DNA of 64,000 nt from Deltaproteobacteria bacterium. Lineage in GTDB: Bacteria > Desulfobacterota > Syntrophobacteria > Syntrophobacterales > Syntrophobacteraceae. The stretch lies in contig JAAYVE010000059.1 of assembly GCA_012517315.1 (NCBI GenBank), forward strand, positions 124,001-188,000. The letters are read 5' to 3'. Positions 10,446-22,317 of the stretch are shown here, one piece after another. Position 1 is the first letter of the stretch, and each line of letters starts with the position of its first letter. Position numbers and translations under genes: made by a program. The notes beneath the pieces were generated by a model that worked only from the letters and a program-made list of their open reading frames with translations, was not told where the DNA came from and searched no databases.

Positions 10446-11477
10446 ATGGGACTGCCGGGGAATCTCTTGACCACCGCCATGGCCGTCATGCCTCACACGA
10501 ATGTGGAACGTGCCCTGGAGACGGCTCTCCAACTGGACATCCCTTTCTGGCCCCAGTTGCCGAATCTGAACTACTATGAGGACATGTACGTCCAGGCTGC
10601 GGAGCACTTTCCGGGCATTTTGCTCGATGTGGAACAGCGAACCCTCCGTTTTTCCATGGACAAGTTCCTGGAAGAAATCGAAGAGACGCTTGCGCGCATG
10701 GACGACCCTGCCGTTTTTGACATTTCGGAAGCGTATTCGGTGGTATACCACCGTTTTCTCACCCTTGACCTGAGCCGTCGTCCGGCCGTCCGGGGACAAC
10801 TGGAAGGCCCCGTCAGCTTCGGTTTCAACGTCCTGGACCAGGATCGGCGGCCTATCCTCTTCCATGACACGGTGCGGCCGTTCATGTTCGATTTCATGGC
10901 CAGGCGGATCAATGTGCAGCTGGAGAGGCTCAAGCGCCTGAACCCCAATGCTTTCATGTTCGTCGACGAACCGGGCCTGCAATTTGTCTTTTCCGCCCTC
11001 TCCGGTTATGGGGAAGTGAAAGCCCGGCAGGATCTCGACGGGTTTCTGGCCCAGGTGGTACGGCCCCGAGGAATCCACCTTTGCGGAAATCCCGACTGGG
11101 ATTTTCTGTTGGGGTTGGACATGGACATTGTGTCCCTAGACGTTTATACCAACGGGGAGGTGTTTTCGTCGTATAACGGGGCAATCCGGCGGTTTCTCGA
11201 CCGGGGCGGGGTGATCGTCTGGGGGATAGTCCCCACAGGTATGGAGAATTTTGAAAAAGAGAGCGTGGAATCCCTGGAAGCGCAGCTTGAAGACATCTGG
11301 GAAAGCCTCGGGCGAAAAGGGATCGACCGCGACCGGCTTCTCAGCCGCAGCCTCCTCTCCCCCGCCACCTGCTGTCTCATCAACCCGGATCGGGAAAAAA
11401 CCGTGGAAAAGGCATTCGATGCGGTCTTGCGGCTCTCTCGACGCCTGCGGGAGAAATACGGGCTGGAAAGTGGTTGA
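10446..11477 (+). CDS. MetE C-terminal-domain-like / UROD-superfamily protein
   Basis: 343 residues with the barrel of the cobalamin-independent methionine synthase C-terminal domain and no N-terminal half. Zinc-site elements are visible: HLCGN (the HxC pair), VSLDVY where MetE has an ISIE-type Glu, and SPATCCL with the late Cys. Short core-MetE proteins in anaerobes have been linked to methyl-corrinoid rather than folate donors, so this could methylate homocysteine within the cycle that includes metK and ahcY. The Glu-to-Asp change makes another thiol methyltransferase role possible. The start has a GGAGG site. Confidence 0.7.
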   Translation: MGLPGNLLTTAMAVMPHTNVERALETALQLDIPFWPQLPNLNYYEDMYVQAAEHFPGILLDVEQRTLRFSMDKFLEEIEETLARMDDPAVFDISEAYSVVYHRFLTLDLSRRPAVRGQLEGPVSFGFNVLDQDRRPILFHDTVRPFMFDFMARRINVQLERLKRLNPNAFMFVDEPGLQFVFSALSGYGEVKARQDLDGFLAQVVRPRGIHLCGNPDWDFLLGLDMDIVSLDVYTNGEVFSSYNGAIRRFLDRGGVIVWGIVPTGMENFEKESVESLEAQLEDIWESLGRKGIDRDRLLSRSLLSPATCCLINPDREKTVEKAFDAVLRLSRRLREKYGLESG

Positions 11478-11519: not shown

Positions 11520-11771
11520 TCATTCCACTTTGATCTTGGTGGCCTTCGAGGATTTCTGCATGCAGTTGCGCCGCTCCTCCAGGTGGGCGATGTGCTGGTC
11601 GATGAGAGACCTGAACGCCTGAAGAAATTCGATCTGGGCATTGGCCATGTGGGTGAAAAAACCGGAGTACCTGGAGCGCATACGGGCTGCCCCTTTCACG
11701 ACCATGCACACGGGGCAGCACTCGTGACGCAGTTCCCCTTCATTCCGTCCGTTGGGGCTGGATTCATTCAT
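11520..11771 (-). CDS. Small Cys-containing protein coupled to ArsA-like ATPase, 83 aa
   Basis: I do not recognise the family. ATG 11771 overlaps the ArsA stop by 8 bp (ATGAATGA), so translation should be coupled. The frame is open upstream inside arsA. The peptide has HECCPVC near residue 17, a possible metal or redox site. A long predicted helix follows (MRSRYSGFFTHMANAQIEFLQAFRSLIDQ in part), then RRNCMQ and a Lys-rich tail. Such a helix could be a partner or cargo for the ATPase. Function is unknown. Confidence 0.65.
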   Translation of the reverse strand: MNESSPNGRNEGELRHECCPVCMVVKGAARMRSRYSGFFTHMANAQIEFLQAFRSLIDQHIAHLEERRNCMQKSSKATKIKVE

Positions 11772-12951
11772 ACCGCTCTCCAAAAAGAATCGTGAGATGT
11801 TCTCCCTTGAGTTCCGCCTTTTGCGGGGCAAGGGGTACGAATGCCCTGGGAAGAATCAGGTTTCTCTTGAAATTCCCCATGCGAATGATGAGTTCCTCCC
11901 CCACCTTGGTGAGGTCGATTTCGCTCTTCTGGACAAAAGGAAGGTGAATCCTCACGGCATGGGAACCGTTCAAGCGGGTGAATTCCAGGGGGGGACGAAC
12001 GGAGAAGAGGGCCGCCGGGTCCCTTCCCGCAAAAAGAGCCTGGCCCAGCTCAAAGAGCTTGCCATAGCCCAGGACTTCACATCGGTAGAAAGGAACCTCC
12101 AGGCATGGCGTGGGATGGAAGTAGCTTTCGGCAAGTTGCCGGTATTCCCTTTGCGACTGGAGCCAGCTTCGGGCGAACGGTCCGTCCGCCTCGGTGAATA
12201 CCCGGTTGAGGACGACGGCATCGATGGTCAACTGATGAAGGGAAAAGAACATGAAGGCCCGCTGGGTCTCCCTCAGGACCATCTTTTCCAGGTTTGTCAC
12301 CAGGCGTACGGAAGTCGCTGCAGGGTCGGTGAGCAGATGGTCGACTCCCTGCAGCTTTTCAAACAGGCGCTCGATGGATGTGAAATAGTCGTCTTCGGGA
12401 AGGGGCACATCGGAGATCCTCCTGGCCATAGGGCGCATGACGCGCATGAGGTTGCGTTCCAGGCGGAAAACCTTCTGCATGTACCACTCGAGGGTCTTGG
12501 GCAGGCTGATGAACCGGATGGATTCCGCCGTGGGCGCACAGTCCAGGATGATGACGTCGTAAGTCTTCTCCCTTGCATACTGGTTGACATAAAGGAGAGC
12601 GGCCACTTCCTCCATTCCCGGGAGCACCGCCAGTTCTTCGGCCAGAACGCCGTCCAGCCCCGAGGCGTTGAGGAGCACGGAGAGGTAGCGATGCACCTCA
12701 CCCCAGTGCTTGCCGATCTCTTCGTGGACATCCAGTTCCTGTATCCAGAGTCTCTCCGCAACGGGGATGGGTAGGCCCCCGTTTTTGTCCATGAGGGGAC
12801 GGTCGAGATCGAAGACGTCGCTCAAGCTGTGGGCGGGGTCGAGAGAGAGGATGAGGGTCCTCAGCCCATTCCGTGCGGTGACTGCCCCGGTGGCACCTGC
12901 AACGCTCGTTTTCCCCACCCCCCCTTTTCCGGCATACAACAGAATACGCAT
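11764..12951 (-). CDS. ArsA/Get3-family ATPase with C-terminal Hsp20-like domain
   Basis: 395 residues. The deviant Walker A GKGGVGKTS is at residues 9-17, the A-loop DPAHSLSDVFD at about 38, and the switch region ILDCAPTAESIRF at about 134. The last ~80 residues (SEIDLTKVGEELIIRMGNFKRN) match the ArsA Hsp20-like beta domain. One ATPase domain only. Without arsB or arsR nearby an arsenite pump is unlikely. A Get3-like chaperone or sorting role is more plausible, and the Hsp70 genes 192 bp upstream fit that. The start has a GGGAGGG site. Confidence 0.88.
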   Translation of the reverse strand: MRILLYAGKGGVGKTSVAGATGAVTARNGLRTLILSLDPAHSLSDVFDLDRPLMDKNGGLPIPVAERLWIQELDVHEEIGKHWGEVHRYLSVLLNASGLDGVLAEELAVLPGMEEVAALLYVNQYAREKTYDVIILDCAPTAESIRFISLPKTLEWYMQKVFRLERNLMRVMRPMARRISDVPLPEDDYFTSIERLFEKLQGVDHLLTDPAATSVRLVTNLEKMVLRETQRAFMFFSLHQLTIDAVVLNRVFTEADGPFARSWLQSQREYRQLAESYFHPTPCLEVPFYRCEVLGYGKLFELGQALFAGRDPAALFSVRPPLEFTRLNGSHAVRIHLPFVQKSEIDLTKVGEELIIRMGNFKRNLILPRAFVPLAPQKAELKGEHLTILFGERYE

Positions 12952-13143
12952 GAACCCGGCCCTCCCGCGTTTGACCGCCTTTGGGCGGAAACGAGAATAC
13001 CCTTTTACAGTCTATTGTAATCCCAGGGGCAAGCCCATGGGAAAAGGATGATGGGGGGCGTCGTCGTGGTCAGCACGCTGCCGAAAGCCCTCGATGGATC
13101 AACACCCGAGAAGAAGGGAAGGGAACAACGGCAAGAGCACTCC

Positions 13144-16029
13144 TCAACCGTCGAGAATGAGGCCTGCGGGGAGTGTCTCCCCGAAGATCCATTCCTTTTC
13201 TCCGTTCTGCAGCGTGGCCTCGGGACGTGTCAGGATTTCCACGAATCGGGCTCCTCCCGGGAGTGTTTCAAGCCAATGGACTATCCGCTGGTGGGCTTCG
13301 GGAGGAAGATCCCTTTCCCGGTCTCCCGTCATGCGCCCCAGTTGCACCACCGAACTGGCCAGGGAATCCGACGGATCGATGTTCAGGGAGAGAAGCGTCT
13401 GGATCCAAGCCGTGGCCTCCTGGCGGGGGATGACCCGATCCAGGGGGCCGTAGAAGGGGACCCGAGCCCCGAGCCTGCAGATGGCCCAAAGCTCCTGGGG
13501 ACGGGGCTTCCCTTTCCGGACCTTCTCCAGGAGCATCCGGCCCAATTCCACCTTGTGCACGACCGGGAGACGTTCCATGGCGGCGAGGGTCATGCAGATC
13601 TCCGTCTCTTCCTGAACGCCCATGGTTCGGGCCAGCTGTTTCGAGGGCTTTTTCTTCTTTTTGTCCGTGCTGTGCAGGGTAGGAAACATCTGCTGGAAGA
13701 TGTGGAGTTGCTGGCCTGCGGAGAGACCTCCCGCGACCCTTCTCCACAGAATCCACCATTCCAGCCTGCCCTGAGGCTGCCTCGGGAAATGGAGGCCGGC
13801 GGGAAAGATTTTCCAGAGTTCCTTGATTCGCCAAGCGTCCACCGGATCCCCGAATCCGGGCCGCATGCAAAAACCGAGAAGATTCAGCCAACGTGCCTCA
13901 TGCGCAGCTGTGAGGGAAGCGCCGGCCCTGCATTCCAGCAGTGTGTCGGAAAGGGTCCGTATGAGGGGCATGGGCCATTTGTCTCTTCCCATGTCCAGGG
14001 CCGAAACAAGTTCCTTGGAAAGCTTTTCGGGACTTGCGGCCGGCTCCCCAGCCGCCCTCTTGAAGACCGCGCGGATCCTCTCGCGGGCGGTCTCGATGGA
14101 ATCGGCGTCGAGGGTTTCACCGGCCAGGCGGGCTGCGTCTTCCTCCCGGTCTCCCTCCTGCCTGACGTCAAACTGCAGTCGCCACCGATGCGGCGATTGC
14201 AAGGAATGGCACCAAAGTTCCAGAGTCCCGACCTCCGTCAAGCGCGTGGCGATCTGGACGGGGAGATTCTGGGCGGAGGCCTTCTTGCCGTACCGTAAAA
14301 CGGTGTGGATGGGGGGCAGGGGAGAGATTTCAGCCTCGGTCAGGGTGACAACAGCCCCTAAAGCATCTCCCAGGCGCGTACTGGAGCTGACGAGCTGAAA
14401 GACGACCGGCTGATTGGCCAGAACCTGAAATGCCGGCTGCGTGAGTTCCGTTTGAAAGCCCTCCTCGGTTCCCCTTGGAACGAGGCACACGGCGGTTCGC
14501 TGCCCCGGTGACTCCTCCCCTTCCTGTCGTCCTCCCACTTCCACGTAATAAGTTCGCGGACTCCCTGCGCCGACCCTGACGCCCGCTCCCATCCGGACCA
14601 TCCCATAGTATGCCGCACCCACGGCAACAGCCAGTTCCGGGCGAGGGTTTTCCAGTTCCACCGGCTTCCATCTCTCTCCGGCCTCCTCGGCAAACCAGGC
14701 ACACACCACCGAGAGGATCCGCCTGCGGATGGAGGACGGTGTAAGGGCTCCTCCGTTGAAGAGCATGAAATCGGGATAGACCGCATGGCGCCCCGTTTCA
14801 TTCTTGAGGAGACACCCGAAGCGCTGCCAGAAGTGAGCCAGGTGGCGCGTTATCGCGGCATCCTGCACGTAAGGCAGGCCCCATTCCGTGAGCCCCGTGC
14901 GACGGGTTCCCTGGGGGACCGAGTCCAGAGAAACGCAGGGGAAAAACCCCTCCAGAATGGTGGATTCCACTCGGGACCGTGTCAACGTTGCCTTTTTTGC
15001 GTCCCCGATGAGTCTTCCCCCCGAACCCATGACCGTGATATCCAGTGCCGAATCCAGTGAGGAAGACTTCTCTGGGGAAAGCACCGACGTCCCGAGCAAG
15101 GTTTCCTTGGCCTTGCGGCACTGGTGCCATAGTTGATGCCATCTCCTGGAATCCAGCTGACCGGTTTTTCCGAAAAGCTCCAGTTCCAGTTGCCGCGCCA
15201 GTGCAAGGTCCATGTTGTCCCCCCCGAGCATGAGATGATCGCCCACGGCCAGCCGGTCGAGAATGAGTCCCCCCTCTCCCTGGCGCGTCGTCACCACGGT
15301 AAAGTCGGTGGTCCCTCCACCTACGTCGCACACAAGGATGAGTTGGCCGGGGCGCATCATGCCCTCCCATCTCTCCTCGTTTCTGGACAGCCAGGCATAG
15401 AAAGCCGCGAGAGGTTCCTCCAGGAGGATAAACTGCTTCAACCCGGCTTCGCGTGCTGCGGACACGGTGAGTTCTCGCGCCACCTCGTCGAAGGAAGCGG
15501 GCACCGTCAAAATGACCAGTTGCTCCTCCATGCGCAGTTCCTCGGAGCCGGCGGCCATGACCGCATCCCAGGCCTCCCGCATGTGCTTCAGATAGCGGCA
15601 GCTTGCCTCAACAGGGGAAACCTTCTGCACCTCTTCCACGGCCCCCCATGGGAGGATGGGGGCGGTGCGATCCACTCCCCCATGGCACAGCCAGGACTTG
15701 GCCGATGACACGAGGCGCCCCGGTACCAGGGCCCCCTGCTCCCTGGCAAACTCGCCCACGGCGTAATCCCTCTCCGGCGCCCACGGCAGTGCAATGCTTC
15801 CTGCAGGGAGTTCATACGGTCCCGGGATGTAGAGAAAGGAGGGAAGAATGGAACGGCTTCCCACTTCGCCTGCAGCGGTGATCTGGGGTATTCTCAGAAA
15901 CCTGATCTTCCGGTTCCCGGATCCCCCGGCGGAGCGGTCGATGTAGGCGACGGCCGAGTTGGTCGTTCCAAGGTCGATGCCGATGATGAAGCGGATTGGA
16001 CGTTCCTGGGAATCGATGGAAAGGTTCAT
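13144..16029 (-). CDS. Large Hsp70-family protein with DUF3731-like C-terminal region, 961 aa
   Basis: The N-terminal ATPase domain has IDLGTTNSAVAY (phosphate 1) and CDVGGGTTDF (phosphate 2). A beta domain follows with TRLTEVGTLELWCHS, and then a ~400-residue helical C-terminal region of the DUF3731 type not found in DnaK. ATG 16029 has an AGGGA site; the frame extends upstream into the neighbouring gene. It is paralogous to the next gene and lies 49 bp downstream of it. No J-protein or GrpE gene is near, so it may work in a dedicated chaperone set with DUF2760. The client is unknown. Confidence 0.88.
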   Translation of the reverse strand: MNLSIDSQERPIRFIIGIDLGTTNSAVAYIDRSAGGSGNRKIRFLRIPQITAAGEVGSRSILPSFLYIPGPYELPAGSIALPWAPERDYAVGEFAREQGALVPGRLVSSAKSWLCHGGVDRTAPILPWGAVEEVQKVSPVEASCRYLKHMREAWDAVMAAGSEELRMEEQLVILTVPASFDEVARELTVSAAREAGLKQFILLEEPLAAFYAWLSRNEERWEGMMRPGQLILVCDVGGGTTDFTVVTTRQGEGGLILDRLAVGDHLMLGGDNMDLALARQLELELFGKTGQLDSRRWHQLWHQCRKAKETLLGTSVLSPEKSSSLDSALDITVMGSGGRLIGDAKKATLTRSRVESTILEGFFPCVSLDSVPQGTRRTGLTEWGLPYVQDAAITRHLAHFWQRFGCLLKNETGRHAVYPDFMLFNGGALTPSSIRRRILSVVCAWFAEEAGERWKPVELENPRPELAVAVGAAYYGMVRMGAGVRVGAGSPRTYYVEVGGRQEGEESPGQRTAVCLVPRGTEEGFQTELTQPAFQVLANQPVVFQLVSSSTRLGDALGAVVTLTEAEISPLPPIHTVLRYGKKASAQNLPVQIATRLTEVGTLELWCHSLQSPHRWRLQFDVRQEGDREEDAARLAGETLDADSIETARERIRAVFKRAAGEPAASPEKLSKELVSALDMGRDKWPMPLIRTLSDTLLECRAGASLTAAHEARWLNLLGFCMRPGFGDPVDAWRIKELWKIFPAGLHFPRQPQGRLEWWILWRRVAGGLSAGQQLHIFQQMFPTLHSTDKKKKKPSKQLARTMGVQEETEICMTLAAMERLPVVHKVELGRMLLEKVRKGKPRPQELWAICRLGARVPFYGPLDRVIPRQEATAWIQTLLSLNIDPSDSLASSVVQLGRMTGDRERDLPPEAHQRIVHWLETLPGGARFVEILTRPEATLQNGEKEWIFGETLPAGLILDG

Positions 16030-16078
16030 GGCTTCCCTGCTAGTGGAGAAGGAGAGGGGAACCGGCGGGCGGCGCGAC

Positions 16079-17902
16079 TCATTGCTGTTCCCGGAGGCTG
16101 AACTCCAGTTTCCAGCTGCGGTCCCCGCCCCGGGCGACGCAGCGCAGTTCAAGGGTACCCACCTCCGTTAGGCTGCTGTAGAGCCAGACCGGGATGAGCG
16201 TTCCCCCTTCCTCCGGTTCCGACGCGGGAAGCAAAGCTTCCATGGTGGCTACCTCCTGGATCTCCCCGCCCCAGCTCTCCACGATCTCCCCCGGCGGGTC
16301 AGTCTTTCGCGTGGTTGACGAGAGAAGATGAAAGACCGCCTGTTCTCCGACCACCAGGCCGAATTCCCTCTGCCTCAGCTCAAGACTGCTTCCCTCCTCC
16401 ATTCCGAAGGGGACCACGCATAGGGCCTTCATGGGGGCGGGGATTCCCGGAACGGCAGGCATGGCGCTTTCGATGCCGATGTAGTATGGCCGTGCCGAGC
16501 CTCCCCTGATACGAATGCCTCTTCCCCTTCGGGCAAGCCCATAATAAGCGGCCCCGCGGGCGACAGCCAGATCCAGGTCCGGAGAAACCAACTCCCGCAA
16601 GGGATGCCCCCCGTTCCACCGGCCGAGGATTTCCAGGATCCGGCGGCGGATGAGAGGGGATTTCATCACGCCGCCGTTAAAGAGTAAAACGCTGGGAAAA
16701 GGGCCCCCGGAACCGCCCTCCCCGCAGAGCGGCGTCCCCTGTGCATCGTTGAGGAAGCGGGCCAGGTGTCGTGAGACCCCTGGGTCCGATTCGTAGGGAA
16801 GGCCCATTTCCCGCATTCCCACCCTCGGTTTTTCCGAGGGGAACTCGTTCGCTTCCGTGAGAGGGAAAAAGCCGTCAAGGAGAATCTTCTCCACCTCCAT
16901 ACGGGTGATTTCCGTCCGGATGGTCCCCCCGATGAGGGAGGAGCCCCTGCCCAGGATCACCGCGGGCGCCGCATCGAGGCGGGCATCATTCAGGAGCAGC
17001 TCTTTAGCGGACCGGCAGCTGTGCCACAGTCCTCTGAACTGCCATGAATCCAGCCGGATCCCCTTTTGGGCCAGCCTTGCCTGGACCGAGTAGGCAAGGG
17101 AGAGATCCATGTTGTCGCCCCCCAGGAGGATATGGTCGCCGACGGCCACCCGGCGCAACGTCAGTTGCCCATCCTCTTCCGTCACCTGGATGAGGCTGAA
17201 ATCGGTCGTTCCGCCTCCGATGTCACAGACGACGATGGAATCCCCCACCCGAACCGCCTTGCGCCAGGCATCCCCCTGGGATTCAATCCAGGCATAAAAG
17301 GCTGCCTGAGGCTCCTCCAGGAGAGTCAAGGTCTGAATGCCGGCGGCATGGGCCGACATGACGGTGAGTTCCCGGGCGACGGCATCGAAGGAGGCGGGGA
17401 CTGTGAGATAGATGTCCTGTTCTTCAAACCGGGAGTCCGGATCCCTGGAGGCCATCTCATGGTTCCACGCATCCCTGAGGTGTTTGAGAAGCTGAGCCGA
17501 AGCCTCCACAGGGGAGATCTTTCTGCCATCAGGAGGACCGTCCCACGGGAGTATGGGTTCCGTGCGGGCCACTCCGGCGTGGCAAAGCCAGGACTTTGCG
17601 GAGGATACCAGTCGGTTGGGCAGTTCCCCTCCCCGGTTGCGGGCGAATTCCCCGACGGCTGAATCCGCCTCGGGATTCCACGGGAGTGCAAGGGCACCGG
17701 GGGGAACGTCATGGGGACCTGGCAGGAAAACAAAGGAGGGTAGCAGTGCCTGTCCCCGCACTTCACCGGGGCTCACCACCTGGGGAATGGAAAACGTGCG
17801 TACGTCGAGCGCTTCTGCAGCCTCAGGGGAGGCGGCGGCATAGGCGAGGACGCAATGAGTGGTTCCGAGATCAATGCCGATGATGTATTTCGCGTCGCTC
17901 AA
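16079..17902 (-). CDS. Hsp70-family protein, 607 aa
   Basis: Actin-fold ATPase with IDLGTTHCVLAY near the N terminus and CDIGGGTTDFS at 226-235. It ends in a short beta domain (SLTEVGTLELRC) without a DnaK-type lid. It is about 350 residues shorter than its downstream paralogue because it lacks the DUF3731-like part. The start is TTG at 17902 with GGAG 7 nt upstream. The two ATPase domains share many segments, such as RLVSSAKSWLCH, so the pair arose by duplication. It sits between DUF2760 and the larger Hsp70 in what looks like one transcription unit. Confidence 0.88.
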   Translation of the reverse strand: MSDAKYIIGIDLGTTHCVLAYAAASPEAAEALDVRTFSIPQVVSPGEVRGQALLPSFVFLPGPHDVPPGALALPWNPEADSAVGEFARNRGGELPNRLVSSAKSWLCHAGVARTEPILPWDGPPDGRKISPVEASAQLLKHLRDAWNHEMASRDPDSRFEEQDIYLTVPASFDAVARELTVMSAHAAGIQTLTLLEEPQAAFYAWIESQGDAWRKAVRVGDSIVVCDIGGGTTDFSLIQVTEEDGQLTLRRVAVGDHILLGGDNMDLSLAYSVQARLAQKGIRLDSWQFRGLWHSCRSAKELLLNDARLDAAPAVILGRGSSLIGGTIRTEITRMEVEKILLDGFFPLTEANEFPSEKPRVGMREMGLPYESDPGVSRHLARFLNDAQGTPLCGEGGSGGPFPSVLLFNGGVMKSPLIRRRILEILGRWNGGHPLRELVSPDLDLAVARGAAYYGLARRGRGIRIRGGSARPYYIGIESAMPAVPGIPAPMKALCVVPFGMEEGSSLELRQREFGLVVGEQAVFHLLSSTTRKTDPPGEIVESWGGEIQEVATMEALLPASEPEEGGTLIPVWLYSSLTEVGTLELRCVARGGDRSWKLEFSLREQQ

Positions 17903-18149
17903 TCGTCAACTCCATCTGCCCACGGACAGGGCGGGAGCCAATAAATTCCGGAAGTCCCCGCCGTTCCTCCGGGTAACGGTTTTGATACTGTTTCTGCCGC
18001 CCTGGGAGATCGCCGAAAGGTCATTCCGTCGACGAGTGGGGTCGATGGGACGTCGGGATGGGAACGGAGCCGGAACCTTTCTCCCGGGCCATTCCCGCCG
18101 AAAGGAGAAAAACCTGAGAGGGGAGTCTTCTCAGTCGGCGGCAATGCGG

Positions 18150-18962
18150 TCAATTCTCAATTTCCACCTCTGCTGGAGCGATCACCCAATCCTTGGTCTG
18201 TTCGGTGGTGGCTCGGGGCAGTTCCAGCCGTTCCACGCGCCATCCCCGGTGCCGCAAGGTGCCCTTGAAGGGCGGGTCTCCAGAGACGTTTCCCGTCAAC
18301 CGCACAGCCCGGGAATCAAAACCGGCGGGCACGCTCACCGGTTCCCCCTCGGGTTCGCCGAAGATGGGCTTGAGGTCCATGTGTTCCTGGAGCGCTTCGC
18401 GGCAACCCTGGTGAATGCTCCGGACGGCGGCGCCGATTTGCGAATCGTCGTAAGGGGTGAGATCCTCCTGGAGGAAATCGATGAGACGACCCTGCCTCTG
18501 GAGAATGGAAAGGATTTGCACGGCGGCCTGCGGCGAGGGAGCGGCAGCGATGGCGGCCACTTGAGGTGCAGCCGCGCCGGCGGGTTGTGACGGTTCTACT
18601 CCCTTGACTTTCGCCTGTGGTGCTGGGGTGACGACAAGGGAGCTTCTTTCGATCCTATTGGCGAGACCCCTCCCCTGCAGATGGACCAGGAGCCAGAGTA
18701 TGAAAGTAGCGAGACCGCCTACACCCAACACGGTCGGTGCAAGATATCCTTTCGTTTCGGTGAGGAATTCCTTCAAACTGGTAAAGGAGGAGCGGGCATC
18801 TGCGGGAAGTCCCTGGGACCCCTGCTGAAGAAAAGGGTCCACCCACTGGTTCAGGCTTCCGATGACCTGTATTGCCACGATATACAGAGATGTCAGCAAA
18901 AGGGCATTGACAATGAAACACGTCAAAAAGGACTGAACCGCCCAGATGGATTTTGCGCGCAC
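18150..18962 (-). CDS. DUF2760 membrane-anchored protein
   Basis: 270 residues. Two N-terminal hydrophobic helices (about residues 8-36 and 75-95) anchor it in the membrane, and an Ala/Pro-rich linker follows. The C-terminal DUF2760 domain is recognisable from ILQRQGRLIDFLQEDL and IGAAVRSIHQGC. The start is GTG with a GAGGAG site. DUF2760 genes commonly sit next to atypical Hsp70 genes, and here it is 247 bp before the first one. It may tether the Hsp70s to the membrane; that role is inference. Confidence 0.85.
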   Translation of the reverse strand: MRAKSIWAVQSFLTCFIVNALLLTSLYIVAIQVIGSLNQWVDPFLQQGSQGLPADARSSFTSLKEFLTETKGYLAPTVLGVGGLATFILWLLVHLQGRGLANRIERSSLVVTPAPQAKVKGVEPSQPAGAAAPQVAAIAAAPSPQAAVQILSILQRQGRLIDFLQEDLTPYDDSQIGAAVRSIHQGCREALQEHMDLKPIFGEPEGEPVSVPAGFDSRAVRLTGNVSGDPPFKGTLRHRGWRVERLELPRATTEQTKDWVIAPAEVEIEN

Positions 18963-19103
18963 AATCTTCTCCTCAATGCTTCCGGTCAGGTCACCCCGTG
19001 TCGGATACCTCGCCGGCTTTCCGGGAAATGGGAAATGACAACGTCGCCGCCTCTCTGCTTGCCCAAGCGACGCGGAATGGTGGCACGAGACCCGTGCTGT
19101 GAT

Positions 19104-20060
19104 TCATTGATGCAGGCTCTGCATGATGGAATCAGCCACTTGCATGGCCCGGGCCTCCAGTGCCGTCCCGATAAAACCCTGTCGGCTCAGGAGAGTGAGT
19201 TTCTCACGATCGATGAGAAACGGACTCTCTCCCGCACGACGAATGACATCCACCTCCAGGTCCAGGTACCTCGCCCCGTAAGGATACAGCTCCACCGGCG
19301 TGTTGATGTTGAAGTACTCGCCGATGAGGGTTCCGTCCCTGTTGTGGTAGGAGTGTTTGACGTACCACTCTCCCTCGCGGATCTCCGTGATGCCGTAATC
19401 TCCGTTTCCGATAGGCAGGTCCAGGCCGTCGTAACGCCCTTGAGAAAAAGTGCGGCGGAATCGCAGGTTGTTATCGTCCAGGCTGATGAGAAGGCCTTCT
19501 CGGGGGCGCATCGCCTTTCCCGAGGGTCGCATATGCTCGAGCCTCACCACTCCGGACTTTTCCAAGGGAAGGAGAACACTGTCCCTGAAAAGTTGCTTTT
19601 CGATGGCTTCCCGACGCTCAGGATCCTCACAAAGACGCTTTTCTGCATGATCCAACGCCTTGCTGTCGATGATGCGCAAGCGGTGGTGCCTGTACAGCGT
19701 CGGGGTGATGGAAAGCCGCAGGAAATCGAGAATCTCCTTGGCCGCTCCAGGCAGCTCGATGCTCGCGATCACCGACGCTTCGTCGTCTTCGGACGGGATG
19801 ATTTCCAGGAGGACGGGATCCACGAGCTTTTCCTGAAGAAAAGTGAGGAACTGACAGACCCTTTCCGGTTCCCCCGAGACCTCGAGCCCCTGAAGATCCT
19901 CCCGGTCCTGAATGAGAAGGTCGTGCGGTTCGACAGACGGCTGCAATCCGAATCGATCCCTGATCTTGGAAGATGGATCGGCGATCAGGTAGCCTGCGTC
20001 CAATGTCAGCCTCGTGAGGGCTGTGGCATAGATGCTTCGAATCTTTAGGCGGCTGCTCAT
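19104..20060 (-). CDS. FAU-1-like RNase G/E-family RNA-binding protein with DUF402
   Basis: 319 residues from ATG 20060, which has a GGAGAAGG site. The N terminus (RIRSIYATALTRLTLDAGY) matches the start of archaeal FAU-1 (AU-binding factor 1), related to the RNase E/G N-terminal region. The C-terminal half (EYFNINTPVELYPYG, LDLEVDVI) is a DUF402 domain. FAU-1 proteins bind and cleave AU-rich RNA. The stop of rtcA is 19 bp upstream, so the two RNA enzymes are probably co-translated. Confidence 0.8.
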   Translation of the reverse strand: MSSRLKIRSIYATALTRLTLDAGYLIADPSSKIRDRFGLQPSVEPHDLLIQDREDLQGLEVSGEPERVCQFLTFLQEKLVDPVLLEIIPSEDDEASVIASIELPGAAKEILDFLRLSITPTLYRHHRLRIIDSKALDHAEKRLCEDPERREAIEKQLFRDSVLLPLEKSGVVRLEHMRPSGKAMRPREGLLISLDDNNLRFRRTFSQGRYDGLDLPIGNGDYGITEIREGEWYVKHSYHNRDGTLIGEYFNINTPVELYPYGARYLDLEVDVIRRAGESPFLIDREKLTLLSRQGFIGTALEARAMQVADSIMQSLHQ

Positions 20061-20079
20061 GGCATTTTCCTTCTCCAGA

Positions 20080-21138
20080 TCACCCGATGCGGGACGGATC
20101 AAGACCGATGCCCTCGATCGTGAGATGGTTTCCCTGAAGATTCACCCCGACGCCGAGCAACTCCCGCACGAGCCACAGGTTGGACTGCACATGGTCCGTC
20201 ATGGCGGGGAGCACGTACTCCGTTTTGTTCTCAGCCAGGGCGGCAAACAGAATCAACTGGTCCGCGAGGTGCCGGTCGGTGGTAGCACCGCTCCTCACAT
20301 CCTCCATGAGGGTTTTCACGACGAAATCGGCTATGCTTTCCGACCGCCGCCCTCGCTTTCCCGCCTGATCCGAGCCCAGAAGACACCCTGTGTCGGTTTC
20401 CGCACGGAGCATCAACGCGGCGCCCTTCTGAACCGCAGTCTCATCGTAACATATATCCAGATTCAATGGGTATTTCCATCTTCCAAGGAGTCTTGCGCAT
20501 TCCCGCGCCATCCTGTCACTGACCCTTTCCTGCCGCAGGTGAGAGGACAGGGCGACCCCCCCGATTTTCGTGATATTTCCCTGAACCGGCATTCGCAAAG
20601 GGCGTAGGGGACGCCGGAGTCTCCCCGCTTGCATACGGAGAACGCCCCGACCCTGAGGCACGTAGCCCGGACGGATGATTTCCAGTTGGACTTCACCGCC
20701 CATCTTCCGCACCAGCGGAAGCAGAACCCGTTGCATGTGAAAGGCACTCGGGGCGAAATCCTGGAAGAGCCCCCCTGTCAGGGTGAATGTGCACGGTCCA
20801 TCGGCATACAGCGCCAGGGGCAACAGGGCAAAAGCCAGCATGGTGGTTGACCCCGCGGTACCGATGTCCCAATGGTAGCTGCCTCCCTTCACCTGCAGAC
20901 CGGGTCGGTATCGAATTTCCCTGGCATTGATTTCGGCACCTTCCAGTTCTCCCCGTGAAAGCCCCGCGCAGGCCTTGAGGGCAACGAGGTGCTGCGGTCT
21001 CAAGCCTGGTTTGTCCCTTGATGCCCGAATGCCGTACATGTGCAGAGATTCTCCCAGGAGCGTCGCCAGGACTGCGGCATACCTGAGAAGGGTTCCGCTC
21101 CCGGAATGCATCGAACCGTCCACTTCAATCACTGGCAT
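20080..21138 (-). CDS. rtcA: RNA 3'-terminal phosphate cyclase
   Basis: 352 residues. The N-terminal motif DGSMHSGSGTLLR corresponds to the family DGSxGxGGGQxLR. RDKPGLRPQHL, GSTTM and DRHLADQLI are further conserved blocks, and TDHVQSN near the end contains the likely catalytic His that becomes adenylylated. RtcA converts RNA 3'-phosphates to 2',3'-cyclic phosphates using ATP. No rtcB or rtcR is nearby, unlike the E. coli arrangement. ATG 21138 has its AGAGG directly adjacent; GTG at 21132 is a possible alternative start with better spacing. Confidence 0.93.
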   Translation of the reverse strand: MPVIEVDGSMHSGSGTLLRYAAVLATLLGESLHMYGIRASRDKPGLRPQHLVALKACAGLSRGELEGAEINAREIRYRPGLQVKGGSYHWDIGTAGSTTMLAFALLPLALYADGPCTFTLTGGLFQDFAPSAFHMQRVLLPLVRKMGGEVQLEIIRPGYVPQGRGVLRMQAGRLRRPLRPLRMPVQGNITKIGGVALSSHLRQERVSDRMARECARLLGRWKYPLNLDICYDETAVQKGAALMLRAETDTGCLLGSDQAGKRGRRSESIADFVVKTLMEDVRSGATTDRHLADQLILFAALAENKTEYVLPAMTDHVQSNLWLVRELLGVGVNLQGNHLTIEGIGLDPSRIG

Positions 21139-21204
21139 CCTCTCGCTTTTCCTTCGCCGACCCCATTTGCATGCTACCCCACCGCAAGCTTCTCTTGCAA
21201 GGCC

Positions 21205-22317
21205 CTAGGACGCATGCCTTAGAAAGGGAAGGCGTGATTCCAGGTATCCAATGAGTCGGTCGCGCTCTTCCCCGAAATCCAGCCGGAGAGATGCGGTGAA
21301 GACGGCGGATCGAAACGGGGCAGGCAAACGTATGGCGTCTTTCTCCGTGGTGATGAGAAACTTGCCGCTGCTTTTCGTGGAAAAGCTGAGCAGTTCTTCC
21401 AGGTCCGCCGGAGTATACCAGTGATGGTCGGGATATTCCCGCCGGCCGGTGAGGGAGATCCCGCAGCATTCAAGGAGTTCGAAGAAATCCCTGTTGTTTG
21501 CGAGGCCCGCGAAGGCCACCACAGGGTGGCCCGCCAAGTGAGCCGCTGGAAGGACAGGCCCTTCCATCCCTGCACGAAAACCGATCAGGACGTGCCGGCA
21601 TGAAAAAATGGGCTTCCGGGGGAAGAGACTCTCTAGACTTGCCCGGAGCCCAGCCACCTCGTGGGGACGGTCGGCCCGGGTGAGGATCAGAGCGTCCGCC
21701 CGCCGGAAGTTCGTGATCGGTTCCCGCAGGGGTCCCAAAGGGAGAAGGGATCCGTTTCCAAAGGGATTGCGCGCGTTGAGCAGGACCAGGTCGAGGTCCC
21801 GGTGAAGCTGCAGGTGCTGGAAACCGTCATCCATCAGTAGGCACTTGAGGGCCGATTGTGACAGCGCGCAACTGCCCGAAATCCACCGCTCTCTTCCCAC
21901 CCACACGGGCACGGAAGGCACGCTTCTTGACATGAGAACGGGTTCGTCCCCCATGCGGCGGGCCAGCTCCCTCGTGTCACCACTCGGCGGGACAAGGCGG
22001 TGGGATTTGCCCGATCCTCCATATCCCCTGGTCAGGATGGCGTGGGGCTGCCCTCTTGATGTGAGAAGGCCGCTCAGCCACAGAGTGAATGGCGTCTTTC
22101 CCGCTCCCCCCACTGCGAGGTTTCCCACGCTGACCACCATCGCAGGGAGGGAGCGCCGCCGCCGGAGCTTGCGTACCTGGTCGTGCCTAAGGCATTGGAG
22201 ATAAACCCATTGGCCAAGTTCCAGGAGGTGGCGAAATGCCGGTGGCCGGATGCGGTGGACAGGCGTGTTCCAGATGGAAAGAAGTCTGGATGACAGGATT
22301 CGCCGGAATGCGTCCAT
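21205..22317 (-). CDS. lpxK: Tetraacyldisaccharide 4'-kinase (lipid A)
   Basis: 370 residues. The P-loop SVGNLAVGGAGKTP is at about residues 63-76, with RGYGG and DDGFQHLQLHRD as expected for LpxK. The enzyme phosphorylates the lipid A disaccharide at the inner membrane; the N-terminal segment is hydrophobic enough for membrane association. It is the first gene of a minus-strand series leading to rtcA (66-bp gap). The downstream steps of LPS assembly are encoded at 54-61 kb. The start has GAAGG upstream. Confidence 0.95.
   Translation of the reverse strand: MDAFRRILSSRLLSIWNTPVHRIRPPAFRHLLELGQWVYLQCLRHDQVRKLRRRRSLPAMVVSVGNLAVGGAGKTPFTLWLSGLLTSRGQPHAILTRGYGGSGKSHRLVPPSGDTRELARRMGDEPVLMSRSVPSVPVWVGRERWISGSCALSQSALKCLLMDDGFQHLQLHRDLDLVLLNARNPFGNGSLLPLGPLREPITNFRRADALILTRADRPHEVAGLRASLESLFPRKPIFSCRHVLIGFRAGMEGPVLPAAHLAGHPVVAFAGLANNRDFFELLECCGISLTGRREYPDHHWYTPADLEELLSFSTKSSGKFLITTEKDAIRLPAPFRSAVFTASLRLDFGEERDRLIGYLESRLPFLRHAS

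Follow-up and report, generated by a model that had tools for sequence, protein, structure and literature searches.

The window analysed here is a stretch of 64,000 nt from contig JAAYVE010000059.1 (GCA_012517315.1), which belongs to a member of the order Syntrophobacterales in the phylum Desulfobacterota. Pfam and NCBIfam matches, together with the coordinates of the open reading frames, confirmed the five genes that a preliminary description had placed here, all on the minus strand, as well as the 192-bp and 247-bp gaps it had given between them. The first gene (18150..18962) encodes a DUF2760 protein (PF10816, 1e-50) with two hydrophobic N-terminal segments, recognized by eye at about residues 8–35 and 75–98 and predicted to be membrane segments. 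It is followed by Hsp70 A (16079..17902; PF00012, 6e-15) and Hsp70 B (13144..16029, with its ATG at about 16029; PF00012), two members of one family, the latter with a C-terminal DUF3731 part (13908–13153; PF12531, 8e-87). The 192-bp gap before the next gene contains a weak sigma-70-like site (TTCCCA-18-TACAAT, 13014..13043) that is near chance level. This gene (11764..12951) encodes an ArsA/Get3-family ATPase of 395 aa (PF02374, 1.4e-81; ArsA_HSP20 PF17886, 2e-17; TIGR00345, 4e-64, over the cut-off). The last gene (11520..11771) encodes a protein of 83 aa, and its start overlaps the ATPase stop by 8 bp (ATGAATGA, 11764..11771), implying that the two are probably translationally coupled. Just past this pair, a plus-strand open reading frame of 343 aa (10446–11477) looks like a real gene and has no Pfam or NCBIfam match.

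We found that the five genes are two independent units, a DUF2760–Hsp70–Hsp70/DUF3731 set and an ATPase/small-protein pair. The preliminary description had proposed a single module for membrane-protein targeting or stress, with synteny of the five families across Desulfobacterota as the test set beforehand. It is true that the genes are adjacent on one strand within the window, and that the Hsp70 and ATPase sets both handle hydrophobic clients in principle. However, the two sets proved to be distributed independently, an outcome that the preliminary description had itself named as refuting, and unlinked outside the window. When 39 genomes of the order were compared, 15 contained both the ArsA pair and the Hsp70/DUF3731 gene, 4 the pair only, 13 the Hsp70/DUF3731 gene only and 7 neither (Fisher p=0.48). 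Among the 239 phylum genomes from other orders, 2 had both sets, against 2.7 expected. Pooling all 247 phylum genomes gave a mild association (p=0.011), which was due wholly to the own order, where both sets are common. The pair adjoins the Hsp70 set in the window genome only, and in the other genomes with both sets these always lay on separate contigs or at a large distance. This was also the case in a congener, in which the 2.3 kb behind Hsp70 B had no match to the ATPase pair and the pair was found on a different, short contig that lacks the upstream part. The five-gene module was rejected because the distribution is independent and linkage is absent elsewhere; the weak promoter-like site in the 192-bp gap also speaks against it, and we regard it as very improbable.

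The DUF2760–Hsp70–Hsp70/DUF3731 genes, which stand together on one strand, form a conserved, uncharacterised set. Of the 39 genomes of the order, 28 had DUF3731, and 26 of these 28 also had DUF2760, mostly 4–5 kb away. A search of a literature library found no paper on DUF2760, DUF3731 or DUF5304 (the last being an actinobacterial family discussed below), and a search for solved structures returned none for DUF2760 or the small protein of the pair. In the order, the set (window 13144–22317) often lies near genes for LpxK, RtcA (RNA 3′-cyclase) and DUF402 and a permease gene. In one genome the set consists of a DUF2760 gene and Hsp70 B behind it, Hsp70 A being absent, a natural two-gene version.

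Judged by its sequence, the ATPase of the pair is Get3d-like. It has a C-terminal alpha-crystallin domain (residues about 322–393; 11773..11988) with seven strands in the structural model, lacks the CXXC zinc motif, and carries the P-loop GKGGVGKT with a deviant Walker A lysine (12907..12930), which is invariant in ATPase alignment A2 save at one position. The Get3 fold, the C-terminal alpha-crystallin domain, the deviant Walker A and the absence of CXXC are all shared with Get3d (NosGet3d All4481, PDB 8egk/3igf; AtGet3d, 8elf). The model (pLDDT 77.8) had NosGet3d 8egk as its best fold match, and archaeal Get3 and AtGet3d 8elf also matched. Identity to Get3d is 22%, and there are further differences: switch I (SLDPAHSLSD) and switch II (DCAPT) are intact by eye, whereas the plant and Nostoc Get3d forms are degenerate; unlike Get3d, this type of ATPase occurs beyond photosynthetic lineages; and it has a co-encoded partner, whereas none is known for Get3d (PMC10248533). 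With 130.7 bits against a cut-off of 325 in the NCBIfam NosAFP equivalog, it is not classed as a NosAFP orthologue. In a midpoint-rooted FastTree, used descriptively and with support values not considered, the clade of the window ATPase lay outside the cyanobacterial/Chlorobi group.

The match to the ArsA family Pfam and a CCPVC motif in the small protein (residues 18–22; 11706..11720), conserved in part only, would also suit a true ArsA pump subunit accompanied by a cysteine-containing, metal-binding accessory, for example an ArsD-like metallochaperone. However, an ArsA pump has two fused ATPase halves, and the window protein has a single half with an alpha-crystallin domain, its nearest folds being Get3d and Get3; it scored 71 bits in the pump equivalog TIGR04291 against a cut-off of 650. 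Furthermore, no other gene family is widely recurrent beside the ATPase pair, and many members of the partner family have lost the second cysteine of C-P-x-C, some of them both cysteines. The arsenite pump was rejected on the equivalog score and the lack of a recurrent third gene, and we hold it to be highly unlikely.

The 83-aa protein gave no library match above cut-off. It is a real protein, with homologues in 19 genomes of the order (and one doubtful match) that share 28–58% identity with the window copy (alignment A1) and always have the ATPase gene adjacent. The model (pLDDT 77.8, pTM 0.43) predicted a disordered N-terminus that carries the cysteines, helices at residues 20–34 and 36–74 and a free C-terminal stretch; the core of the long helix had a pLDDT above 90. 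Alignments A1 and A3 and the model define this long helix (11550..11666) by the motif FxxHxxNAxxExLxAxRSLIDxxIxxLE. The protein ends in I-K-V-E (11523..11534), an (I/V)-x-(I/V) tail that is a putative docking element.

Whether the small protein is cargo of the ATPase or a zinc-bound adaptor had been left undecided in the preliminary description; the adaptor is the better guess. Zinc binding cannot be general, because so many members lack the second cysteine. Cargo would fit a short protein with predicted helices whose gene always adjoins that of the ATPase, but is unlikely because there is no membrane segment and the gene accompanies that of the ATPase in different phyla. A single dedicated cargo co-encoded over bacteria and archaea would be unusual, and the conserved tail resembles a docking motif. 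We therefore consider a client role improbable.

The pairing of ATPase and partner is well supported, and of the module proposed earlier this sub-pair has strong support. Their genes overlap or nearly touch in most relatives, and the partner adjoins the ATPase in 19 of 19 genomes of the order with the small protein and in 21 of 21 further phylum loci beyond it, one of them with reversed gene order. A search that starts from the small protein favours pairs, and the unbiased sets are those of the ATPase-based searches (247 genomes; 80 contig loci). Profile searches of the 247 phylum genomes detected the small protein in 29 of them and 40 ATPase genes in 39, all 29 small-protein genomes included. 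Three of the 40 genes, cut by contig ends or partial, were left out. At the 37 assessable ATPases, a partner-type neighbour was present in 34 cases, 29 of them profile-detected and 5 divergent, the latter judged by eye as small and with the same ending; it was missing at two loci (L233 and L238) and at the second copy in genome G197.

A contig scan with the ATPase alignment provided 80 loci, from other phyla too. Apart from Desulfobacterota, tail-bearing partners were found in Acidobacteriota, Planctomycetota (Scalindua), Chloroflexota (two loci), Actinomycetota (four loci), Dormibacterota and Bacillota (Dethiobacter, Thermoclostridium), and among Archaea in Ferroplasmaceae, Methanomassiliicoccales and Archaeoglobaceae. 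Similar proteins at six more loci had an ending that was extended, weaker or oppositely oriented. Among the ATPase loci surveyed, those of Cyanobacteria, Chlorobi, Chloroflexus and Bacteroidetes had no adjacent partner, and a profile search of the ATPase-bearing cyanobacterial, Chlorobi and Bacteroidetes genomes found no unlinked one. A tail-bearing partner unlinked to an ATPase was seen in Caldilineaceae, and two Chloroflexus genomes encode an unlinked relative in which the helix is kept and the tail is absent. In Dethiobacter, a small tail-bearing protein is encoded on either side of the ATPase gene. A marine deltaproteobacterial genome carries two ArsA-family genes in tandem, end to start. 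No locus had a natural fusion of ATPase and partner; the long open frames that span L193, L195, L197 and L105 run in a different frame from the ATPase.

In small heat-shock proteins, the alpha-crystallin domain has a groove to which a C-terminal (I/V)-X-(I/V) motif binds (PMC8155344). The window partner, ending in KIKVE, has such a motif, and the [KR]-[IV]-x-[IV]-x ending is likewise seen in Hsp20s of the same organisms (PKQIVV, RKIEVK, KRIEVK). These Hsp20s run on past the domain into a K/R-I/V-x-V tail, unlike the ATPase, in whose model the last strand of the alpha-crystallin domain stops 2 residues before the C-terminus, leaving it with no tail of its own. Thus, unlike in small heat-shock proteins, the tail and the alpha-crystallin domain are on separate proteins here, the domain being on the ATPase. 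All 24 sequences of alignment A3, whose selection did not depend on the tail, carry it. A tabulation of 75 partner tails showed I/V at the first position and V/I/L at the third in 75 of 75, although these had been chosen by pattern and the resulting logo is partly circular. A strict tail pattern occurred beside 18 of 48 ATPases with an alpha-crystallin domain and beside 0 of 31 relatives without it (p=4.7e-5), in a comparison in which the loci are not phylogenetically independent and the two groups were separated by query coverage of the domain. As background, a looser pattern fitted 8 of 353 genes, and short hydrophobic tails are not rare. Conservation of the groove columns of the alpha-crystallin domain gave no interpretable difference between ATPases with and without a partner.

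We think it probable that the functional unit is a two-gene operon in which a Get3d-like ATPase is encoded with its small partner, whose tail docks in trans and whose helical arm is an adaptor; the docking and the adaptor function are what we infer. The partner tail would insert into the beta4/beta8 groove of the ATPase alpha-crystallin domain, as small heat-shock protein tails do between subunits and BAG3 does in trans, such that the ATPase would bear the groove and the partner the plug. BAG3, whose IPV motifs attach to small heat-shock proteins in trans (PMC6297355), resembles the partner in having an I-x-V motif on a non-Hsp20 protein; it differs in that its motifs are internal and that it is a large hub protein binding Hsp70, with no sequence relation. 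The tethered helical arm would lie close to the site at which the ATPase dimer takes up hydrophobic clients, and there it could be an adaptor or lid in client capture and release, a role resembling that of Get4 or of the N-terminal arm in small heat-shock proteins; candidate clients may be membrane or aggregation-prone proteins. The likeness to Get4/Get5 would consist in the proposed adaptor position at the ATPase, as no sequence relation was seen between these and the 83-aa helical protein. The alpha-crystallin domain of Get3d occupies the Get4-binding site of Get3 (PMC10248533).

An alternative is that the partner binds the ATPase core, at the client groove or the dimer interface, via its conserved helix, in which case the tail would merely contribute a beta-strand or be meant for a different protein, for instance a cellular Hsp20. 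The HxxNAxxExLxAxRSLID motif is as conserved as the tail, and the Chloroflexus relative mentioned above has the one without the other. Furthermore, the cyanobacterial and plant structures of NosGet3d and AtGet3d have the alpha-crystallin domain packed on the ATPase dimer (PMC10248533), because of which the groove may not be free. However, the most divergent partners (those of Ferroplasmaceae, Dethiobacter and Thermoclostridium and two of the divergent phylum neighbours, L232 and L235) keep the tail while the helix is hardly recognisable, and no such tails occur beside the 31 relatives without an alpha-crystallin domain. We regard binding through the helix as unlikely, though less so than a client role, and favour docking of the tail in trans.

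NosGet3d and AtGet3d bound tail-anchored substrates even without the alpha-crystallin domain, and the authors of that study described the function of the domain as unclear and stated that there must be unknown partners (PMC10248533). The gene pair recurs in many bacteria and some archaea and suggests a partner so far missing from the poorly understood Get3d family; for the questions left by that paper, it offers a candidate and a precise hypothesis of how the two dock. A more tentative proposal, to which we give somewhat less than even weight, is that a "split small heat-shock protein" on a Get3-type ATPase, with the alpha-crystallin domain contributed by the ATPase and the arm and I-x-I tail by the second protein, forms an ATP-controlled chaperone or targeting complex over bacteria and archaea, and that in photosynthetic Get3d, as one of its branches, the partner was lost or replaced.

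On the evidence of homologue searches, alignments and profile–profile comparison, the partner family includes DUF5304 (PF17230) of Actinobacteria. The direct match of DUF5304 to the window protein was sub-threshold (E 0.077; 13.8 bits against a gathering cut-off of 26.8), and hhalign of DUF5304 against the Desulfobacterota partner family gave a probability of 95.4 and an E-value of 1.8e-8 over 43 columns. DUF5304 was present in 16 of 79 genomes of the class Actinomycetes, directly downstream of an alpha-crystallin-bearing ATPase in 16 of 16 loci, and ended in I/V-x-I/V/L in 16 of 16, some with extra residues after it. It thus shares with the window partner a homologous helix, the I-x-I/V/L tail and the position behind the ATPase, and differs in its longer N-terminal part, often with CxxCPxC. 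The DUF5304 family, hitherto unannotated, thereby gains a likely molecular role. At each of the 16 actinobacterial loci, the gene of the alpha-crystallin ATPase is followed by that of DUF5304 and then by a ROK glucokinase gene (glkA-like), and therefore this chaperone-type pair is tied to a glucose kinase gene there; the glucokinase gene is absent at the window locus. The member of Streptomyces coelicolor is presumably SCO2127, the gene before glkA (SCO2126). According to the statements in PMC11043171 and PMC11472566 that cite Tierrafria et al. 2016, deletion of SCO2127 alters actinorhodin production, and osdR expression requires SCO2127. Should SCO2127 belong to the family, for which its position ahead of glkA speaks, this existing deletion phenotype becomes interpretable.
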